Assembly (NCBI RefSeq): GCF_023653455.1
Contig: NZ_JAKEDR010000066.1
Span: 1 to 16,587, forward strand
Origin: Paraclostridium ghonii
GTDB taxonomy: Bacteria > Bacillota > Clostridia > Peptostreptococcales > Peptostreptococcaceae
Reading direction: 5' to 3'
Length of the DNA: 16,587 nucleotides
Below the pieces are notes generated by a model. The model saw nothing but the letters and a program-made list of their open reading frames with translations. It was not told the DNA's origin and ran no database searches. Both the position numbers and the translations under genes were made by a program. Below are positions 2,421-15,176 of the stretch, piece by piece. Numbering within the stretch: position 1 is the first letter of the stretch; each line of letters begins with the position of its first letter.

Positions 2421-3314
2421 TTATTTCATCATTTTTCTATATCCATTCGCATTAGCAAAAACATGAGTTTGTATATCATCCATGACGATTATTCCTTGTA
2501 TGTTTTGTTTGAAGGCATTTCCCAATAGTTTTGCACCTCCACCCATTACTACAACGGCTTCTGTGCTTATTGGATAGTTTAGTTTTAATTCATTGTATAT
2601 TTTTGCAAAAAATTCTTTAGAAGCATTTATATTTACATTAATATCTTGTTTTTCACCTTTAAAATAAAACCCTTTATCTATGTAATCTTGTACTTTGTCC
2701 CTACCTACAGTCACTTCACTTTCAAATCTTACATCTTTTTCGATAGATTTAGATATTGCATCATATATGTTTATAGTTCCTATATCCATAGAGTGTGGTT
2801 TAGTAGCTCTATTCTCTTTAATCAATGCTATATCAGTTGTTTTCCCCCCTATATCAACTATTACAATATCTCTATTGCCTACTTTTTCTTGGATGTTTTT
2901 CCCAAAATACAAATATCCTGTTATCCCTTCAGGAAATACTTTTACGCTATTTATATAGATTTTTCTTTTAGTATCTCCAAATTGAATATTATATTCTTTA
3001 TCTTGTAATTTATCTATAATTGTTTGCTTGAATTGAGTGTATTGCTTTATTGGTAATCCAAGCGCTAAGTCTACATTATCTTCATCTGTAGATTTGCATA
3101 TAGCTCCTAATAGTAGAGGAAGAAAATTTTCTTTTTCAAACTTTTTAGGATTAATTTCTTCTTCACCTTCACCTAAAAAAAATGTTTTGCCATCTAAAGT
3201 TAATCTGTCAGCGTTTGTTCCATATTCTCCTACTGTTGTAACTTTGCTCTCAAAGATTATCCCTTCACTTGTTTTTACTGCAAAATTTCCTATATCTATA
3301 CCTAATTTAGCCAT
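2421..3314 (-). CDS. parM: ParM-like actin ATPase for plasmid segregation
   Basis: This 297-residue product has the actin/Hsp70 fold signatures in order: phosphate-1 loop GIDIGNFAVK (residues 5-14, D7), phosphate-2 loop VDIGGKTTDIAL (153-164, D154) and adenosine motif VVVMGGGAKLLG (254-265). Length fits plasmid ParM/Alp proteins rather than MreB or FtsA. Role: forms ATP-dependent filaments that push sister plasmid copies apart, with a DNA-bound adaptor (ParR) at the centromere. The start at ATG 3314 has GGGAGGA about 6 nt upstream. The gene lies 21 nt after the ParR-like gene in one operon, behind the repeats at 3566-3690. This means the phage genome is kept as a low-copy plasmid in the lysogen. 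The adaptor-before-filament gene order is the reverse of R1 and pSK41. The exact ParM subfamily cannot be told by eye. Confidence 0.9.
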   Translation of the reverse strand: MAKLGIDIGNFAVKTSEGIIFESKVTTVGEYGTNADRLTLDGKTFFLGEGEEEINPKKFEKENFLPLLLGAICKSTDEDNVDLALGLPIKQYTQFKQTIIDKLQDKEYNIQFGDTKRKIYINSVKVFPEGITGYLYFGKNIQEKVGNRDIVIVDIGGKTTDIALIKENRATKPHSMDIGTINIYDAISKSIEKDVRFESEVTVGRDKVQDYIDKGFYFKGEKQDINVNINASKEFFAKIYNELKLNYPISTEAVVVMGGGAKLLGNAFKQNIQGIIVMDDIQTHVFANANGYRKMMK

Positions 3315-5399: not shown

Positions 5400-6041
5400 T
5401 TATATTCGAATCTTATCAGCTTGGTTAATTTCAATTATTTTTTCAAGTTCTTCTTCGCTATAATCTAAAAAGCTTTCTTCAAAATTTCTGAATTTATTTT
5501 TATTTCCCGAAATTTTAGGGTTATATTTTTCTTTATTTTGTTGTATACTTTTGTTATAAGAATAATTTTTAGTAGTAGTAGAAGTCGGTACTTGTAGTAG
5601 GGTATCGGCTTTTTTGTGTTCTGTTTCCCCTTCTTCTTCAATTAATTTATAATATTTATCTGTAAATCTAAATACAGTTTTCTCGCTCCCCAATTCCCCT
5701 ACTGTTGCAAATTCAATTAATCCTAAAAATTTGTAAGACTTAACTTTCTTTTTTGTGTTTTCAGTCATTTTTAAAAATCTTTCATTCCAGTCCAAAGGTT
5801 TAACTCCTAAGTAGTAAAGACATTTTCTTTGTATTGCTTCTTTTTTCAATCTTAAAAACGGTAAATCATCAGCAACTTTTTTCCATGAAATCCAATTCCA
5901 ACACTTACTATCTTTTATGTGTTCTTCCATTTTGCCACTATTTTTAAAATGTGCTATATAGTCTAATATTATTAGTTCATCAGCTTCTATATTTAAATCT
6001 AAAAGCCTTTGCTGCTCATAGTTAAATATTCTTTTTTTCAT
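5400..6041 (-). CDS. Candidate plasmid/phage replication initiator (winged-helix)
   Basis: This is a 213-residue product with no membrane segment. Residues about 15-125 look like a winged-helix DNA-binding domain: an N-terminal helix (ADELIILDYIAHFKNSGKM), a conserved-looking WISWKKVADDLPFLRLKK segment, a recognition-helix stretch and a wing (YKFLGLIEF, then KTVFRFTDKYYKLI). This pattern occurs in initiator or replisome-organiser proteins of Firmicute plasmids and phages. A low-complexity Thr/Ser/Asn linker (about 145-175) leads to a C-terminal segment that may recruit host replication proteins. It is coupled by an ATGA overlap to a ribbon-helix-helix protein and lies beside the iteron/DnaA-box region at 6338-6572, supporting a Rep role. 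A transcription regulator is the alternative. Confidence 0.55.
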   Translation of the reverse strand: MKKRIFNYEQQRLLDLNIEADELIILDYIAHFKNSGKMEEHIKDSKCWNWISWKKVADDLPFLRLKKEAIQRKCLYYLGVKPLDWNERFLKMTENTKKKVKSYKFLGLIEFATVGELGSEKTVFRFTDKYYKLIEEEGETEHKKADTLLQVPTSTTTKNYSYNKSIQQNKEKYNPKISGNKNKFRNFEESFLDYSEEELEKIIEINQADKIRI

Positions 6042-6175
6042 TTACTTTTCACCTTCCCATCTTTTCTGATTAAATCAAGTACGTATTCTTGGAAAGTCAC
6101 CCCCTCCTTTAAAAGTTCAATCCTCAGCTTCATGTAATAATCTTCGTCAATTCTTATAGATACTTGTTTTTTCAT
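6038..6175 (-). CDS. Ribbon-helix-helix (CopG/Arc-type) regulator
   Basis: This 45-residue product is too short for most gene finders. It begins MKKQVSIRIDEDYYMKLRIE: KQVSIRID is the DNA-binding ribbon, followed by two helices (about 11-24 and 28-38, VTFQEYVLDLIRK) separated by a Gly turn. That is the classic CopG/Arc layout. AGAGGTGA lies 6-7 nt before ATG 6175. Its TGA overlaps the ATG of the Rep candidate (ATGA, 6041-6038), so the two are translationally coupled. A promoter (TTGCAA-17-TATACT) lies upstream. In many plasmids a small CopG-type protein represses rep and sets copy number; that is the inferred role here. Confidence 0.8.
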   Translation of the reverse strand: MKKQVSIRIDEDYYMKLRIELLKEGVTFQEYVLDLIRKDGKVKSK

Positions 6176-6244: not shown

Positions 6245-6337
6245 GTTATTTTATTGTAATTTTTCCCAAGTTTTCGAGTTTTATTTTGTCTATATAAAAC
6301 TATATTAATAGTATTATAAATAATAGTACTATACTAT

Positions 6338-6432
6338 GTTCATGCGAACATGGGGGTACTGTTCATGCGAACATGGGGGTCGTGTTCACGTGAACATAGG
6401 GTACTGTTCATGCGAACATGGGGGTCGTGTTC
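6338..6432 (+). repeat. Four palindromic iterons (origin candidate)
   Basis: Four units start at 6338, 6361, 6384 and 6406 with lengths 23, 23, 22 and 23 bp; a fifth is cut off after GTTC at 6429-6432. Each unit has GTTC-N4-GAAC (GTTCATGCGAAC three times, GTTCACGTGAAC once, a perfect palindrome) followed by a G-rich ATGGGGGT or ATAGGGT and ACT or CGT. The units are GC-rich in an AT-rich setting and spaced about two helical turns, so a protein would bind one face. They lie between the Rep candidate and the DnaA-box repeats. Confidence 0.85.
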
Positions 6433-6656: not shown

Positions 6657-6884
6657 ATGAACAAAATTTATATATTAGAAGGGAAAAATGGGGAGGTATT
6701 AACAATTTTGAGTAATAAAGAAGAAAAAACATATAGTGAATTTAGAGAGGATTGTTTAGCGGCATCTTGTGAAAATGACAATGATTTTTATAGTGTTAAA
6801 GATATATTAGTAAATATGTATGGATATGAAGTAGTAGATGTTATTGGAGGATTTGAAACAAATAAAAAGAAAGGAGCATTTTAA
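6657..6884 (+). CDS. Hypothetical early protein
   Basis: This 75-residue acidic product begins MNKIYILEGKNGEVLTILSN, a likely beta-hairpin start, and ends in a basic tail (NKKKGAF). Start ATG 6657 has AAGGGGG about 9 nt upstream. No metal or membrane motif (two Cys, C33 and C38, are isolated). It is the first gene to the right of the candidate origin and is followed one nucleotide later by a Cys-rich mini-gene, so the two form an operon. The family is not recognised. Confidence 0.7.
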   Translation: MNKIYILEGKNGEVLTILSNKEEKTYSEFREDCLAASCENDNDFYSVKDILVNMYGYEVVDVIGGFETNKKKGAF

Positions 6885-7068: not shown

Positions 7069-7257
7069 ATGGATGATAATTTATATGACGAGCTAAAGAA
7101 AAGTGGTTTAAAAATGAGTTATGTCGCAAATAAGTTAGGTATGAATAGAAGAACCTTGTATGGGAAATTAAAAGGCAATGGGAAGTACAAATTAAAAGAA
7201 AGTGAGAAAGAGATTATAAAAGATTTAATTAGAAGGGTTAATGATGAATTTAAATAA
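7069..7257 (+). CDS. Small helix-turn-helix protein
   Basis: This 62-residue product has a helix-turn-helix at about residues 13-36 (KMSYVANKLGMNRRTLYGKL), with the usual A-x3-G turn and basic recognition helix, as in Fis/HTH_8 or simplified Xre folds. A charged C-terminal helix (ESEKEIIKDLIRRVNDEF) may dimerise. Start ATG 7069 follows GGGGAGG at good spacing. It precedes the FtsK-like gene; a long N-terminal version of that gene would overlap it. Probable regulator of this operon, target unknown. Confidence 0.75.
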   Translation: MDDNLYDELKKSGLKMSYVANKLGMNRRTLYGKLKGNGKYKLKESEKEIIKDLIRRVNDEFK

Positions 7258-7357
7258 AATAGCATGGAATAATTGGAGCAAGGAGACAGAACAAAAAAGG
7301 GATATAAGTCCTAAAAGGTATTGTGAGGGAAATAAGACAATTAAGGGGGCAACTAGT

Positions 7358-8482
7358 ATGAGTGACAAAAATGCTTTAGAGCCGTTGGCTGATGGATTAG
7401 TTGAAGGAATAAATCTGCTTGGGACTGTAGCGATTCAAGCCTCGGTAAATGTAATTGCGTTAAGTTCCAAAGGAATTTCCGAGTTGATAAAGCTTGTGGT
7501 AGATGTGACCAATATAGGCTATCAATGTGCAACAGGGACTTACGATTACGAGGTAGCAACTACTGACGAAGCTGAAAAGACAAAATTAAAAAGTATAACT
7601 GATATAGAGTATAAAAAAATAGATTATGAGTATAAACCTATACAAACTAAATATTTAGAGTTATCAAGCTTCGATTGTGGTTTAAAAGAGTTTGTTAAAT
7701 TCAAAAGGAATAACGAGGTAGAAGATAATTCCCTTAAGTGTTTTATAGGAGAAAATGAAAATGGTAAAACGCAGGAATTGGATTTGTTTAAAGATGGAAG
7801 TTTGTTAATAGGTGGAGCAAGTAGATTTGGGAAAACAAGTTTAATTTATTCGATACTCTTAAGCTTCATGGATAGATACGACCCTAATTATCTAAGAATG
7901 GTTCTAGTAGATTTTAAAGAAGTTGATTTAGTTCGACTGGATAAATATAAACACATAATATCAAACTGTATTACAGACGTTAATAAGCTAAATAACTTAC
8001 TAACTTGGTGTGAAAATGAATGTAAAAACAGGGCTGAAAAGTTTAGGGAGAATGATGTATCTAACATACAAGATTTTAATAAAATAAGTGAAATAAAGAT
8101 GCAGCCAATAATTGTTGTTATTGATGAAATCGCACAAGTTTTGATAGGAGATAAAAAACAAACAGATAAAATTAAAGATAGAATATTTAAATTAGTATCT
8201 AAATCCATGTGTTTTGGAGTTTATTGGATAGTTTGCACGCAAGAGCTTTCAAGGGAGACACTTGGAAGAATGAAGATTAACTTTACTCAAAGTATTGGCC
8301 TTAAATGTGCTGATAAAATAGCTTCTGATATGATTATAAAGGATGGAAACTTAGAAGATATAAAAATAAAAGGTAGAGCAAAGATAGAAAATAGCGAAGG
8401 TATAACAGAGTTTCAAAGTTATTGGACTACTAAAGAAGATTTTGAAAGGATATTAAAGAATAAAAGGAAAGGGAGTGACTAA
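7358..8482 (+). CDS. FtsK/SpoIIIE-like DNA-translocase ATPase
   Basis: This is a 374-residue product. I chose ATG 7358 because AAGGGGG (7343-7349) is 8 nt upstream; the frame is open back to ATG 7241 (413 residues) but that start overlaps the previous gene. Residues about 15-50 are mildly hydrophobic (amphipathic, perhaps membrane-associating). The motor domain follows: Walker A GGASRFGKT (152-160, K159), Walker B IIVVIDE (251-257, D256-E257) and a sensor-like VCTQE (292-296). This is the FtsK/SpoIIIE/TcpA class that moves double-stranded DNA. It lacks the four N-terminal membrane helices and the gamma domain of chromosomal FtsK. The next gene, a GIY-YIG protein, starts directly at its stop. 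It may pump or transfer the element's DNA; no relaxase is seen here. Confidence 0.82.
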   Translation: MSDKNALEPLADGLVEGINLLGTVAIQASVNVIALSSKGISELIKLVVDVTNIGYQCATGTYDYEVATTDEAEKTKLKSITDIEYKKIDYEYKPIQTKYLELSSFDCGLKEFVKFKRNNEVEDNSLKCFIGENENGKTQELDLFKDGSLLIGGASRFGKTSLIYSILLSFMDRYDPNYLRMVLVDFKEVDLVRLDKYKHIISNCITDVNKLNNLLTWCENECKNRAEKFRENDVSNIQDFNKISEIKMQPIIVVIDEIAQVLIGDKKQTDKIKDRIFKLVSKSMCFGVYWIVCTQELSRETLGRMKINFTQSIGLKCADKIASDMIIKDGNLEDIKIKGRAKIENSEGITEFQSYWTTKEDFERILKNKRKGSD

Positions 8483-8893
8483 ATGGCTTATGTATATAGG
8501 TTTATAAATTCCAATAATAGTGTTATATATGTTGGTTATACAGGGCAAACATTGGATAAAAGAATGAGCCAGCACTTTAAAAAGGGGCATTTACCTAAAA
8601 AGTGTTACAATTCGATTGCTCGAATAGAATATATAAGATATTCAACTAAATCAGATGCAATGATCGCTGAAACATATATGATAAACAAGTATAAACCTAT
8701 ATATAATCGTTTAAATAAGCAAGGTGATGCAATTACATTAGACCTTGAATTTGAAGAGAATTGGAAGGTATACAGGACATATAAGGCGACTAAAGAATAT
8801 AAAGCAAGTGGTTGTAGTGGATGTATAGTTGTAGTTGGTGTAATAGCTCTACTATTATACGCTATAGGATTTTTTTTATTTAGTATTATATAA
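8483..8893 (+). CDS. GIY-YIG nuclease-like protein with C-terminal membrane segment
   Basis: This is a 136-residue product whose ATG directly follows the FtsK-like stop (TAA-ATG), so translation is coupled. Residues 1-78 form a GIY-YIG domain: Y3-V-Y5 at strand 1, Y16-V-G18 at strand 2, then R27, H31, E63 (IAETYMI) and N75 (PIYNRL), all in the expected order. A linker (79-110) leads to CSGC and a strong hydrophobic segment (about 115-136, IVVVGVIALLLYAIGFFLFS), a C-terminal membrane anchor. GIY-YIG enzymes nick or cut DNA; a membrane-tethered form beside a DNA-pumping ATPase is unusual. The catalytic Tyr, Arg and Glu are present, so activity is possible. A terminator at 8935-8966 ends this operon. 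Confidence 0.85.
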   Translation: MAYVYRFINSNNSVIYVGYTGQTLDKRMSQHFKKGHLPKKCYNSIARIEYIRYSTKSDAMIAETYMINKYKPIYNRLNKQGDAITLDLEFEENWKVYRTYKATKEYKASGCSGCIVVVGVIALLLYAIGFFLFSII

Positions 8894-8934
8894 TAAATGT
8901 AGATTAAATTTTATTGAGATTACACTTAATAAAG

Positions 8935-8966
8935 TGGTCGGCAGAGGTGTCGGCTATTTTTTTTAT
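8935..8966 (+). terminator. Intrinsic terminator
   Basis: TGGTCGGC (8935-8942) pairs with GTCGGCTA (8949-8956) through G-C and G-U pairs around a 6-nt loop, followed by a run of eight T and more T-rich sequence. It ends the FtsK/GIY-YIG operon. Confidence 0.65.
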
Positions 8967-8998
8967 TTTTAGATATGAATAATTGTTAATGAAAAAAG

Positions 8999-9060: not shown

Positions 9061-9258
9061 ATGAACTTAGATAGATTAAAAGAGCTTAGAAAAGAACAAA
9101 AGCTAAGTCAAGAGCATATCGCAAGGGCTTTAGATATATCTCTTAGAAGTTATCACATGAAAGAAAATGGAGAAAACTCATTTACGTTTGATGAAATTAT
9201 AAAAATAGCTAATATATTAGACTTGGATGTAATTGATTTTGTTAGGGAGATTTTATAA
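9061..9258 (+). CDS. Xre-family transcriptional regulator
   Basis: This 65-residue single-domain Cro/CI-type HTH spans residues 4-60: LKELRKEQKLSQEHIARALD (helices 1-2), ISLRSYHMKENGENS (recognition helix), then FDEIIKIANILDLDVIDFV. AAGGAGG lies just before ATG 9061. It has its own promoter carrying two TTGCATAT copies, and the next promoter (9303-9332) carries another, so it probably represses itself and the downstream micro-gene operon. With no extra domain it acts as a simple dimeric repressor. Confidence 0.85.
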   Translation: MNLDRLKELRKEQKLSQEHIARALDISLRSYHMKENGENSFTFDEIIKIANILDLDVIDFVREIL

Positions 9259-12518: not shown

Positions 12519-15176
12519 ATGTCAAATTTAAATTTATTAGAAGCTATTGAAGTATTAAAAGGGGATAGTGATAACTTAATAAGAATTATTGAACACTATG
12601 GAACAGATATAAAAAACAATCAATGCAAATGTCCTTTTCATAAAGATAAAAACCCTTCGATGGGTATAAAGGGAGGTCATTACAAATGTTTTACGGCTAG
12701 TTGTGGTGCTAGTGGAGATTTAATAGATTTTATAAGGAATAAAGATGGGATGGACACACTAGAAGCTACTAAAAAAGCTATAGATATTTTAGGACTTCCA
12801 ATAACGATTGAAAAAGATAAACTTGATAAACTTAAAGAATATATAGAGAAGGATAAGAGTGTTCACTTTACAGATGATTCTTTTAAATTAGATGGAATAT
12901 ACTTTTACAAAAATAAAGACAATGATCCAGTACTTGCAAGACTTAAATATAAAAATAAAGAAACTTGCAAAAAGAAATTTAGACAAGCGAATATAATCGA
13001 TAAGGGCGATTACTACTCACTTGACTTTAGAAAAGACCACGAAAAACATAACTTACTTTATAATATGCCGATGCTACTTAAAAATATACATGAAAACAAA
13101 GAAGTTTTTATAGCTGAAGGCGAAAAAGACGCTGATAATATGAGAAGGTTGGGATTTGTCGCAACTACGTGTAGAGAGATAAATTCGGTTGACGATGAAG
13201 TTTTAGAGCCTTTGTATGGTGGGAAATTAGTTGTATTAAATGATAATGACACGGCTGGGAAAACACATTTAAGCAATCTTAGAAAAAGGCTTATAAAAAA
13301 TGTTAAATCCTTTAAGAATCTAAAATTAAAAGAGATAATTGATATAGGCGAAAAAGCCGATATATCGGACTTTATAGACGCTAAATTCAAGGAAGGGTTA
13401 TCAACTAAGGATGTACGTAAAATAATCCTTGAGAAGGTCAATAGAACGCTTGACGAGTGTAATACATTAGAACTTCAACAAAATTTCAAGGGGATATACA
13501 AAACATTTACTAAGACTGATAAAGAGGGGAATACAACTACTGAAAGGATATATCTAACAAACTTTAATGTTGAAAGTCTTGTAAGAGTTGAAAATATAGA
13601 TACTGATGAAGAAATGATAGAACTTGTAATCACTTCAAACTTGGGAGAAAAGAAAACAATTAAAGGTAAAAGTAATAAAATATTCTTAGATCCGAAAAAC
13701 TTCAATAGTTTCATGAACATGGGATTTTACTTCGATGGGAAACCAAAGGACCTAAATACTTTTAAGGCATGGGTTAATAAATACTTCTTACTTGAAAAAA
13801 GAAACGAATATTTGCTTACAGGCATAAGGGATATAGACGATAAAAAGATGCTTATAACTCCAAGTGGAGCAGTTTTATCAGATGGAAAAATTGACACAAA
13901 TTATAAAGCCGATAATCACATAACTCAAATAGATTATACTAACACTAAAAGACTAACTAAAGAGCAAGCTATTGAACTTTCAAAGCACTTATTTAGCTTC
14001 AATACACCTAAAAATTGTTATAATATAGTAGGAAGTTTAGTATCTAATATGTTTAATAGCATCTATAGAGAAGCAAAAGGAATAAATGTTCATGTTACAA
14101 GTTATGTTGGGGAGAGTGGAAGTGGAAAATCCTTTACAATTGACAATATAACAAGACCTTTACTTGGTTTGGATAATGACACTCTAGTCTTTAGTGCAAT
14201 AATGAAGCACGGACTTTTAAGAGCTATGAATGATACTTATATGACTACTATAATTGATGAAGTTAAACCATCACAAAGTAGTGAGTTTCAAAGACAATTA
14301 CTATCAAACACAATTAGATCAGTAACAGGAGAATCTACAGTAATAAAAGGAACACAAAATCAAGGGATTAAGACATATAAATATAATTCAAGTTTAGTAA
14401 TAGCAGGCGAGGAAGCACTAGACGAAACGGCATTAAAGAACAGATGTAATATAATTTGGTTTAGCTGCAATGATATGACAGAAGAAATAATAAATCATGG
14501 TAATTACTTTATTACCAAAGAAGGAAAAGAAGCCTTAAAGAGTTTAGGATTAGAAATATATCTTTATATTATGAACAACTATAATGCGGATAGCTTAAAT
14601 AAAGTCCTAGAAGCCATCGAGAGCGATTTCAAACAAGAAAGCAAGATACACCCTAGAATACAGTCAACTTTTAACAATACAATACTTGGATATATAACAG
14701 TTAAACATATCCTTAATAGTATAGGAGGTAATGAAATCAATTTAGAGAGTTCGGAACAAGTTGGCAAACTAATATATCAAAATCTTAAAGAGAACGTATT
14801 AGATGGGGAATTTGCAACTAAGCAAGTATATGATGAAATATTAGAAGCTATTGACGACTTAGCAGGTAGCAAAAATGGAATAGAAGAAGATTATCACTAT
14901 AAAACAGATAGAACGTTTATAAAGCTTGATATAAAAGCCATCTATCCAATACTTGAAAGCTATTATAGAAGCAGGGGGAAACAACTTAAAATAGATTGTA
15001 AGTCTTTTATAAAGATGCTTACTAAATCAAAGTATGTAAGTGGAGATAATAAAGAATACTATAAAGTTGTTAAGCTAAATGGTAAAGCTAAAAGATGCTA
15101 CTTTTTAAACAAAGAAGCCTTAACAAATTTAGATATGCCTATACTAAATCCAAATATAGAATGGGAAGAAATTTAA
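12519..15176 (+). CDS. Phage primase-helicase (CHC2 zinc finger, TOPRIM, AAA+)
   Basis: This 885-residue product has three parts. A CHC2-type zinc finger lies at residues 36-62 (C38-x2-H41 and C57-x4-C62). A TOPRIM primase centre follows, with AEGEKDA (199-205, E200) and VVLNDNDTAGK (238-248, D242 and D244). After a middle domain (about 310-490) comes a P-loop helicase-like domain: Walker A GESGSGKS (531-538, K537), Walker B TTIIDE (576-581) and an SSLVIAGE strand (624-631). It should lay RNA primers and unwind DNA at the fork, as in other phage replicons with primase-helicase fusions. Start ATG 12519 follows AGAGGGGG. The GTTACTA-rich region immediately follows its stop, suggesting an origin it may act on. 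Confidence 0.9.
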   Translation: MSNLNLLEAIEVLKGDSDNLIRIIEHYGTDIKNNQCKCPFHKDKNPSMGIKGGHYKCFTASCGASGDLIDFIRNKDGMDTLEATKKAIDILGLPITIEKDKLDKLKEYIEKDKSVHFTDDSFKLDGIYFYKNKDNDPVLARLKYKNKETCKKKFRQANIIDKGDYYSLDFRKDHEKHNLLYNMPMLLKNIHENKEVFIAEGEKDADNMRRLGFVATTCREINSVDDEVLEPLYGGKLVVLNDNDTAGKTHLSNLRKRLIKNVKSFKNLKLKEIIDIGEKADISDFIDAKFKEGLSTKDVRKIILEKVNRTLDECNTLELQQNFKGIYKTFTKTDKEGNTTTERIYLTNFNVESLVRVENIDTDEEMIELVITSNLGEKKTIKGKSNKIFLDPKNFNSFMNMGFYFDGKPKDLNTFKAWVNKYFLLEKRNEYLLTGIRDIDDKKMLITPSGAVLSDGKIDTNYKADNHITQIDYTNTKRLTKEQAIELSKHLFSFNTPKNCYNIVGSLVSNMFNSIYREAKGINVHVTSYVGESGSGKSFTIDNITRPLLGLDNDTLVFSAIMKHGLLRAMNDTYMTTIIDEVKPSQSSEFQRQLLSNTIRSVTGESTVIKGTQNQGIKTYKYNSSLVIAGEEALDETALKNRCNIIWFSCNDMTEEIINHGNYFITKEGKEALKSLGLEIYLYIMNNYNADSLNKVLEAIESDFKQESKIHPRIQSTFNNTILGYITVKHILNSIGGNEINLESSEQVGKLIYQNLKENVLDGEFATKQVYDEILEAIDDLAGSKNGIEEDYHYKTDRTFIKLDIKAIYPILESYYRSRGKQLKIDCKSFIKMLTKSKYVSGDNKEYYKVVKLNGKAKRCYFLNKEALTNLDMPILNPNIEWEEI

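Follow-up and report, generated by a model that had tools for sequence, protein, structure and literature searches.

Two described anti-phage systems are among the closest known counterparts of the locus considered here. According to the available part of its description, SNIPE is a GIY-YIG nuclease that resides at the inner membrane and cuts phage DNA during injection; removal of its membrane segment makes it toxic unless the nuclease is mutated, although a predicted transmembrane (TM) segment is also missing in 34% of SNIPE homologues (PMC13190303). DUF4297-HerA is presented, in the accessible text of the corresponding report, as a ring motor and a nuclease that form one active anti-phage machine (PMC11291478). 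In the current study, we describe a pair of genes that may combine these two principles in a 16,587-base stretch of Paraclostridium ghonii DNA (hereafter, the window), which is an entire contig (C338) of a 3.53-Mb genome assembly in 374 contigs. The pair consists of an open reading frame (ORF) for an FtsK/SpoIIIE-type motor (window 7241..8482, + strand) and, directly behind it, the gene of a 136-amino-acid GIY-YIG nuclease with a C-terminal membrane tail (8483..8893, +). A literature search for FtsK together with GIY-YIG in phages, prophages, phage-plasmids, and Clostridium, from whose coverage preprints and most subscription papers were absent, returned no paper about such a pair, as judged by titles and the openings of abstracts.

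The original prediction, made from the DNA alone, was that of a membrane-tailed nuclease coupled to a DNA motor, and this structural reading is supported, since conservation extends to the gene pair, to the catalytic residues, and to the tail. The two genes abut as described, with the motor's TAA stop at 8480-8482 and the nuclease's ATG start at 8483-8485 (gap 0). Homologues of the nuclease were sought among ~5.8 billion proteins, with only those of similar length considered, and the resulting 37 matches comprise 36 proteins plus the window's own. Counting each contig or genome place once, the family occupies 17 loci, and conservation of the pair, which the prediction had left to be checked, was borne out by an FtsK gene near the GIY-YIG/TM gene in 16 of them. 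The motor gene lies directly upstream on the same strand in 12 of the 17, at gaps of 0–21 nucleotides (nt): 0 in the window, 4 in L006/L051, 11 in L007, L010, and G054:C59, 12 in L008/L056, L009/L057, and G054:C55, and 21 in each of L052, L053, L054, and L055. Four further loci carry FtsK on the opposite strand within 1.1 kb (L003, 239 nt; L011, 628 nt; L126, 693 nt; L125, 1,064 nt). When near-identical loci (L007/L010, L056/L057, and L052-L054; 98–100% identical) are collapsed, FtsK is present in 12 of 13.

The association was also followed from the motor side and against other GIY-YIG ORFs. Among 41 FtsK loci in viral contigs, the seven closest to the window's motor (E 3e-35 or better) all have a GIY-YIG/TM gene directly downstream, whereas the remaining 34 (E 3e-24 or worse) show no GIY-YIG match in an ORF of <300 amino acids; thus, only a distinct sub-family of these motors has the nuclease as its partner. 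In a control set of 21 other GIY-YIG ORFs, none has the tail (maximum hydropathy 1.34) and none has an FtsK match in the flanking stretches examined, an absence that is weaker for L135, L136, L026, and L027 because their flanks are short (~0.7–1.5 kb per side). This set includes near-duplicates (L151/L152 and L154/L155), the similar L144/L147, and four UvrC-sized ORFs; five control loci (L150, L153, L015, L018, and L020) had no GIY-YIG ORF at threshold and were not counted. Five other GIY-YIG ORFs, one of them shared with the control, likewise reach a hydropathy of at most 1.17, and the pair-bearing phages themselves hold tail-less GIY-YIG ORFs (L010:15329 and L052:6337) ~8 kb and ~3 kb from FtsK. 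Chance juxtaposition is ruled out by the comparison of 16 of 17 family loci with 0 of 21 control ORFs.

The nuclease matches PF01541 over residues 1–75 (E 7.7e-15), and its GIY-YIG domain spans approximately residues 1–78 (8483..8716, +). The residues that had been reported as kept (Tyr5, Tyr16, Gly18, Arg27, Glu63, and Asn75) are indeed present and are each invariant in all 37 aligned family members, as is His31; Val17, named in the same motif, is replaced by Ile in some. A degenerate nuclease was ruled out on the basis of these invariant catalytic residues. The strong hydrophobic segment at the C-terminus also proved real, with a best 19-residue Kyte-Doolittle mean of 2.92 at residues 115–133, and hydropathy and the structural model agree on a predicted TM helix at residues 111–135 (8813..8887, +). 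A C-terminal mean of at least 1.6 is reached in 37/37 family members, and the more distant GIY-YIG proteins of L003, L011, L126, L124, and L125 carry the tail as well (2.22–2.83). By locus, it is seen in 16 of 17 (at least 1.98), the exception being G054:C59, where the contig end cuts the gene after 60 residues. Lys or Arg residues precede the hydrophobic segment in all 37 proteins, and none or one follows it in 34, a pattern that, by the positive-inside rule, fits a cytoplasmic nuclease. The predicted model (mean pLDDT 87.6) consists of a UvrC-type domain, a linker, and a single long helix (111–135). Its nearest solved structures are UvrC N-terminal domains (1yd6, with a TM-score of up to 0.75 on the target), although UvrC is a multi-domain repair protein without such a tail. 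A GIY-YIG homing endonuclease was likewise rejected: the protein has a short linker and a hydrophobic helix in place of a DNA-recognition region, and its gene occupies a fixed slot in the phage group.

The motor ORF encodes 413 amino acids that match PF01580 (E 2.6e-23) and, over residues 2–409, the PHROG 1358 family 'FtsK/SpoIIIE-like' (E 3.4e-67), and its predicted structure is of the same type. Both nucleotide-binding motifs are intact, namely Walker A (G192-T199; 7814..7837, +), with G192, G197, and K198 invariant, and the Walker B acidic pair D295-E296 (8123..8128, +), likewise invariant, in an alignment of 25 rows in which the window's own protein fills two (24 FtsK proteins were found). 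The AlphaFold model, which is confident at residues ~150–410 and poor before residue ~150, is matched best by the E. coli FtsK motor and next by TcpA of plasmid pCW3, HerA being a weak structural match only; the FtsK sequence profile also aligns with pCW3 TcpA (profile positions 112–366, E 1.2e-24). A standard FtsK/SpoIIIE chromosome translocase was rejected: the motor and its Walker motifs are present, but no Pfam match to the C-terminal winged-helix domain FtsK_gamma was obtained at E 0.1. Helices in the N-terminal part are weakly hydrophobic (best 19-residue mean 1.58, with relatives reaching 2.02). The start at 7358 given in the original prediction holds in part; it is an ATG with its own ribosome-site-like sequence and would yield 374 amino acids, but it is internal to an ORF that opens at 7241, and both starts, each preceded by a ribosome-site-like sequence, are possible. 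The intervening 39-residue extension (7241-7357, in frame) is found in 9 of the 24 FtsK proteins, and relative to L051 its codons show fewer non-synonymous than synonymous changes per site (0.185 versus 0.407, over only 19.7 synonymous sites). Its first ~20 residues are still recognisable in the distant FtsK homologue P0058.

Read together, these features suggest a membrane-held, two-gene motor-nuclease module whose most likely purpose is superinfection exclusion, a proposal that leads the field of explanations while falling somewhat short of an even chance. The nuclease would sit at the cytoplasmic face of the membrane, where the tether would keep it off most of the chromosome; the FtsK ring would grip double-stranded DNA and feed it to the GIY-YIG domain, such that DNA of a competing phage or plasmid could be seized as it comes through the membrane and cleaved while it enters or shortly afterwards. 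The pair would thereby unite the SNIPE principle of a membrane-held nuclease with the DUF4297-HerA principle of a motor that supplies the DNA. We infer membrane location, physical contact between the two proteins, nuclease activity, the target, and the biological role. A more detailed version, held only tentatively, is that of a two-part entry nuclease of a phage-plasmid, in which the FtsK ring captures entering DNA and reels it onto the tail-anchored GIY-YIG domain, with SNIPE-like logic, a motor of its own, and an independently placed anchor, again for superinfection exclusion.

The genomic context of one relative leans towards defence at the membrane. Locus L125 is a prophage in genome G032, from the same bacterial family as the window, and encodes a 499-amino-acid protein (L125:4262-5758) that matches the PADLOC model PD-Lambda-1, that is, SNIPE (E 1.9e-82). 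The order of genes there is a Rha/ORF6C phage regulator, two helix-turn-helix (HTH)-cluster genes, an ImmA-type peptidase, the SNIPE homologue, two genes without a Pfam match, FtsK, a 100-amino-acid ORF, a Replic_Relax-like gene, the GIY-YIG/TM gene, a 48-amino-acid ORF, and a serine recombinase. The stretch of a prophage between its immunity genes and its recombinase is a frequent site of accessory and defence genes. The prophage's own GIY-YIG/TM protein matches no PADLOC model. Like SNIPE, the window protein is predicted to be a membrane-anchored GIY-YIG enzyme with a catalytic Glu and a cytoplasmic nuclease domain; unlike SNIPE, which has an N-terminal anchor and DUF4041, it is a 136-residue protein with a C-terminal anchor and no DUF4041 match in Pfam, and it is paired with FtsK. 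Membership in SNIPE was thus ruled out by the missing DUF4041 and PD-Lambda-1 matches and by the anchor at the opposite end. Both the window's pair and systems such as DUF4297-HerA, Sir2-HerA, and HerA-NurA place a superfamily DNA motor beside a nuclease or effector in adjacent conserved genes, but here the nuclease is of the GIY-YIG type with a membrane tail and the motor is FtsK/TcpA-like.

Several observations weigh against a role in superinfection exclusion. The SNIPE neighbour was seen at a single locus, the window's nuclease matches no PADLOC model (PD-Lambda-1 included) at E 0.1, and the PADLOC matches of the window's FtsK (mad8, SspH, and, at E 0.066, QatB) are at the level of the motor fold only. 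In the part of the SNIPE report that is available, no such motor partner is named, and the word FtsK does not occur (PMC13190303). The nuclease family is rare: an alignment search at E 1e-3 matched 184 of 197 genomes, with UvrC dominating, but at E 1e-16 only 8 of 393 genomes of the order match, including the window's own, and three of these (G002, G217, and G277) have tail-less proteins. One of the 17 family loci, L124, has the GIY-YIG/TM gene without FtsK within ~9.6 kb. The TcpA-like motor and the Replic_Relax-like partners of related motors also point elsewhere, as does the constant position of the pair close to genes for recombination and priming throughout the window's phage group, which resembles that of an early phage function more than that of an exchangeable defence gene.

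Sequence divergence speaks on both sides. Between the window/L051 and the L010/L056/L052/L055 group, identity is 51–60% for the GIY-YIG protein, 31–35% for FtsK, and 47–52% for the small upstream protein c4, and in genome G054, where two contigs carry the pair, the GIY-YIG genes are 97% identical (over 60 amino acids) but the motors only 57%. It therefore seems that the nuclease was retained as its motor either diverged or was replaced. Against this, the low motor identity may be ordinary divergence, since the ERF annealing protein falls to 27–30% identity in the same genomes (the ERCC4-type nuclease is at 46–51%). Moreover, of five genes compared with L051, GIY-YIG is under the weakest constraint, with NG86 ratios of non-synonymous to synonymous change (dN/dS) of 0.118 for GIY-YIG, 0.087 for FtsK, 0.066 for c4, 0.046 for the ERCC4-type nuclease, and 0.030 for ERF, values that are rough because synonymous sites are near saturation.

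The main rival explanation is DNA mobilisation or transfer, in which a coupling motor of the TcpA/TdtA type would drive the element's DNA through the envelope, its preparation or trimming being the task of the membrane nuclease (in relatives, of a Replic_Relax-like protein). The resemblance of the window's motor to pCW3 TcpA in both sequence and fold is in its favour, as TcpA-like motors serve conjugation. In the available text of two reports, DNA donation in Thermus involves membrane-localised TdtA together with a NurA-like nuclease next to it (PMC5365140), an arrangement that resembles the present one in placing a motor, there a membrane motor, beside a nuclease, and TcpA generally precedes the relaxase in streptococcal mobilisable elements (PMC5357655). 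Against these precedents, the searches of window ORFs, which covered only part of the small ones on a partial contig, recognised neither a relaxase nor a secretion-system family, and the nuclease is of the GIY-YIG type with a tail. The motor lacks an FtsK_gamma match, a related plasmid (CP124686) is typed as non-mobilizable, and a tail-anchored hydrolytic nuclease would be an unlikely candidate for a transferred relaxase. On balance, we regard transfer as rather unlikely.

Part of what speaks for transfer comes from relatives in which the motor has a different partner. In six distinct loci (L126, L127, L129, L132, SpaA1 [L133], and pBMV_1 [L134]), a profile built for the purpose identified the gene directly after FtsK as Replic_Relax-like, weakly so in L133 and L134 (21.6 and 25.3 bits), and the record of phage 268TH007 annotates FtsK and replication-relaxation side by side. 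These partners have 185–231 amino acids, and their alignment reads as a winged-helix-like start followed by a D...ExE pattern like that of PD-(D/E)XK enzymes. Of six compared with Pfam (those of L127, L129, L132, L126, L003, and L125), three match Replic_Relax, all below the cut-off (E 8.7e-5, 5.9e-4, and 0.074), two match nothing, and one matches an unrelated family only. PHROG 9996 (function unknown) matches all three partners compared with it, and two of the three also have a weak match to the PHROG called 'replication initiation by nicking', a further point for transfer. When one Replic_Relax-like protein was used to scan viral sequences, no relative was found, and the GIY-YIG protein of L126 likewise gave no matches in phages. 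L003, L011, L126, and L125 each combine an FtsK, a Replic_Relax-like, and a GIY-YIG/TM gene within a short distance, arranged in three different orders, the Replic_Relax-like gene being split into two ORFs in L003 and L011 and unbroken in L126 and L125. The cassettes of the Bacillus phages and plasmids SpaA1, 268TH007, and pBMV_1 are similar to the window's pair in combining a small FtsK with an adjacent nuclease-like partner on phages or plasmids (in 268TH007 with an HTH regulator close by) but differ in that the partner is Replic_Relax-like rather than GIY-YIG/TM. Two side observations concern the exchange of partners. A 234-amino-acid protein (L010:15329-16033) begins with a GIY-YIG domain, behind which comes a segment resembling the winged-helix region of the Replic_Relax-like proteins, and the two partner types may recombine. 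The FtsK-less GIY-YIG/TM gene of L124 (L124:9885-10316) shares its island with genes for an integrase and a Prim-Pol protein, and a related island in L129 has FtsK and a Replic_Relax-like gene at a similar place.

A second alternative is early-infection processing of phage or host DNA at the membrane, for example the resolution of branched or concatemeric DNA or the degradation of host DNA, and it is suggested by the surroundings of the pair. Eight codirectional loci were compared (the window, L051, L010, L056, L052, L055, G054:C55, and G054:C59). The c4 protein (73–75 amino acids, with 47–97% identity among six aligned) is encoded upstream of FtsK in all eight, by 6657..6884 (+; 75 amino acids) in the window, and an HTH-cluster protein is encoded 3' of the nuclease in six of the seven loci whose contigs continue, L055 being the exception and G054:C59 ending too early; the window has a Cro/CI-type HTH regulator here (9061..9258, +; PF01381, E 4.3e-11). 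The slot c4-FtsK-GIY-HTH is fixed, and in the window it is followed in the same direction by the ERF, ERCC4-type nuclease, and primase-like genes, which would suit a processing role. Structure-specific nucleases such as Slx1 share the GIY-YIG fold, although Slx1 itself is a weak structural match to the model (E 0.7 or worse). A terminator-like hairpin with a T-run (8931..8960, +; fold z-score −3.1 for 8890-8975), by contrast, parts the pair from the recombination genes in the window, and a membrane tether would be odd for bulk DNA processing. The related FtsK/Replic_Relax cassette also seems dispensable: the main difference between two Bacillus phages of 96% identity, 268TH002 and 268TH007, is a segment of 2,525 bp that encodes FtsK, a replication-relaxation protein, an HTH regulator, and one hypothetical protein (PMC9476937), from which it follows that such motor cassettes can be gained or lost. 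Taking both sides into account, we consider a processing function unlikely. A 62-amino-acid Fis-type HTH protein (7069..7257, +; PF02954, E 3.7e-6), whose gene overlaps the start of the FtsK ORF, is common only to the window and L051 among the loci compared for gene neighbourhood.

The window as a whole has phage-like content, including the end of a tail fibre (PHROG 6782), an amidase, a ParM-like actin (2421-3314, −; PHROG 691), and, again by PHROG, the ERF annealing protein, the ERCC4-type nuclease, and a primase-like protein. The family searches made, Pfam and PHROG among them, found no integrase among its five ORFs of at least 200 amino acids, and a phage-plasmid lifestyle is likely given this absence and the presence of ParM. 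The element is a phage of Peptostreptococcaceae, probably a phage-plasmid, of which the contig is a part; a near-identity DNA search of the whole window against phages and plasmids gave no matches. The ParM-like actin and a 45-amino-acid protein whose sequence resembles a ribbon-helix-helix (RHH) protein (6038-6175, −) suggest plasmid-type maintenance. FtsK homologues have a role in segregation. The pair could on these grounds act in maintenance of the extrachromosomal prophage, for instance by segregating it or resolving its dimers where the cell divides, but ParM lies ~4 kb off on the opposite strand, circles would be linearised rather than resolved by a hydrolytic nuclease, and relatives of the pair occur on chromosomal contigs (L125 and L126); we find this explanation improbable. 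A palindrome-bearing repeat with a TGTTCATGCGAACA-type core occurs four times at a spacing of 22–23 bases (6331-6432) in the region that parts the rightward operon from the divergent RHH-like/replication-type genes, and this array has the look of iterons, operators, or a centromere. The primase-like protein (12519-15176; 885 amino acids) matches an RT-associated DnaG-like model of PADLOC (E 3.6e-20) and is probably an ordinary phage primase.

Thus, the pairing is real and conserved and belongs to the known class of motor-plus-nuclease systems, and superinfection exclusion is put forward as its most likely role. If this proposal is correct, membrane tethering of a GIY-YIG nuclease for cutting DNA at entry would have arisen in more than one architecture, and phages would couple such a tethered nuclease to a DNA pump. 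A possible function would then also emerge for small FtsK proteins encoded by phages and plasmids, a group that the PHROGs database places only in the category 'moron, auxiliary metabolic gene and host takeover'.

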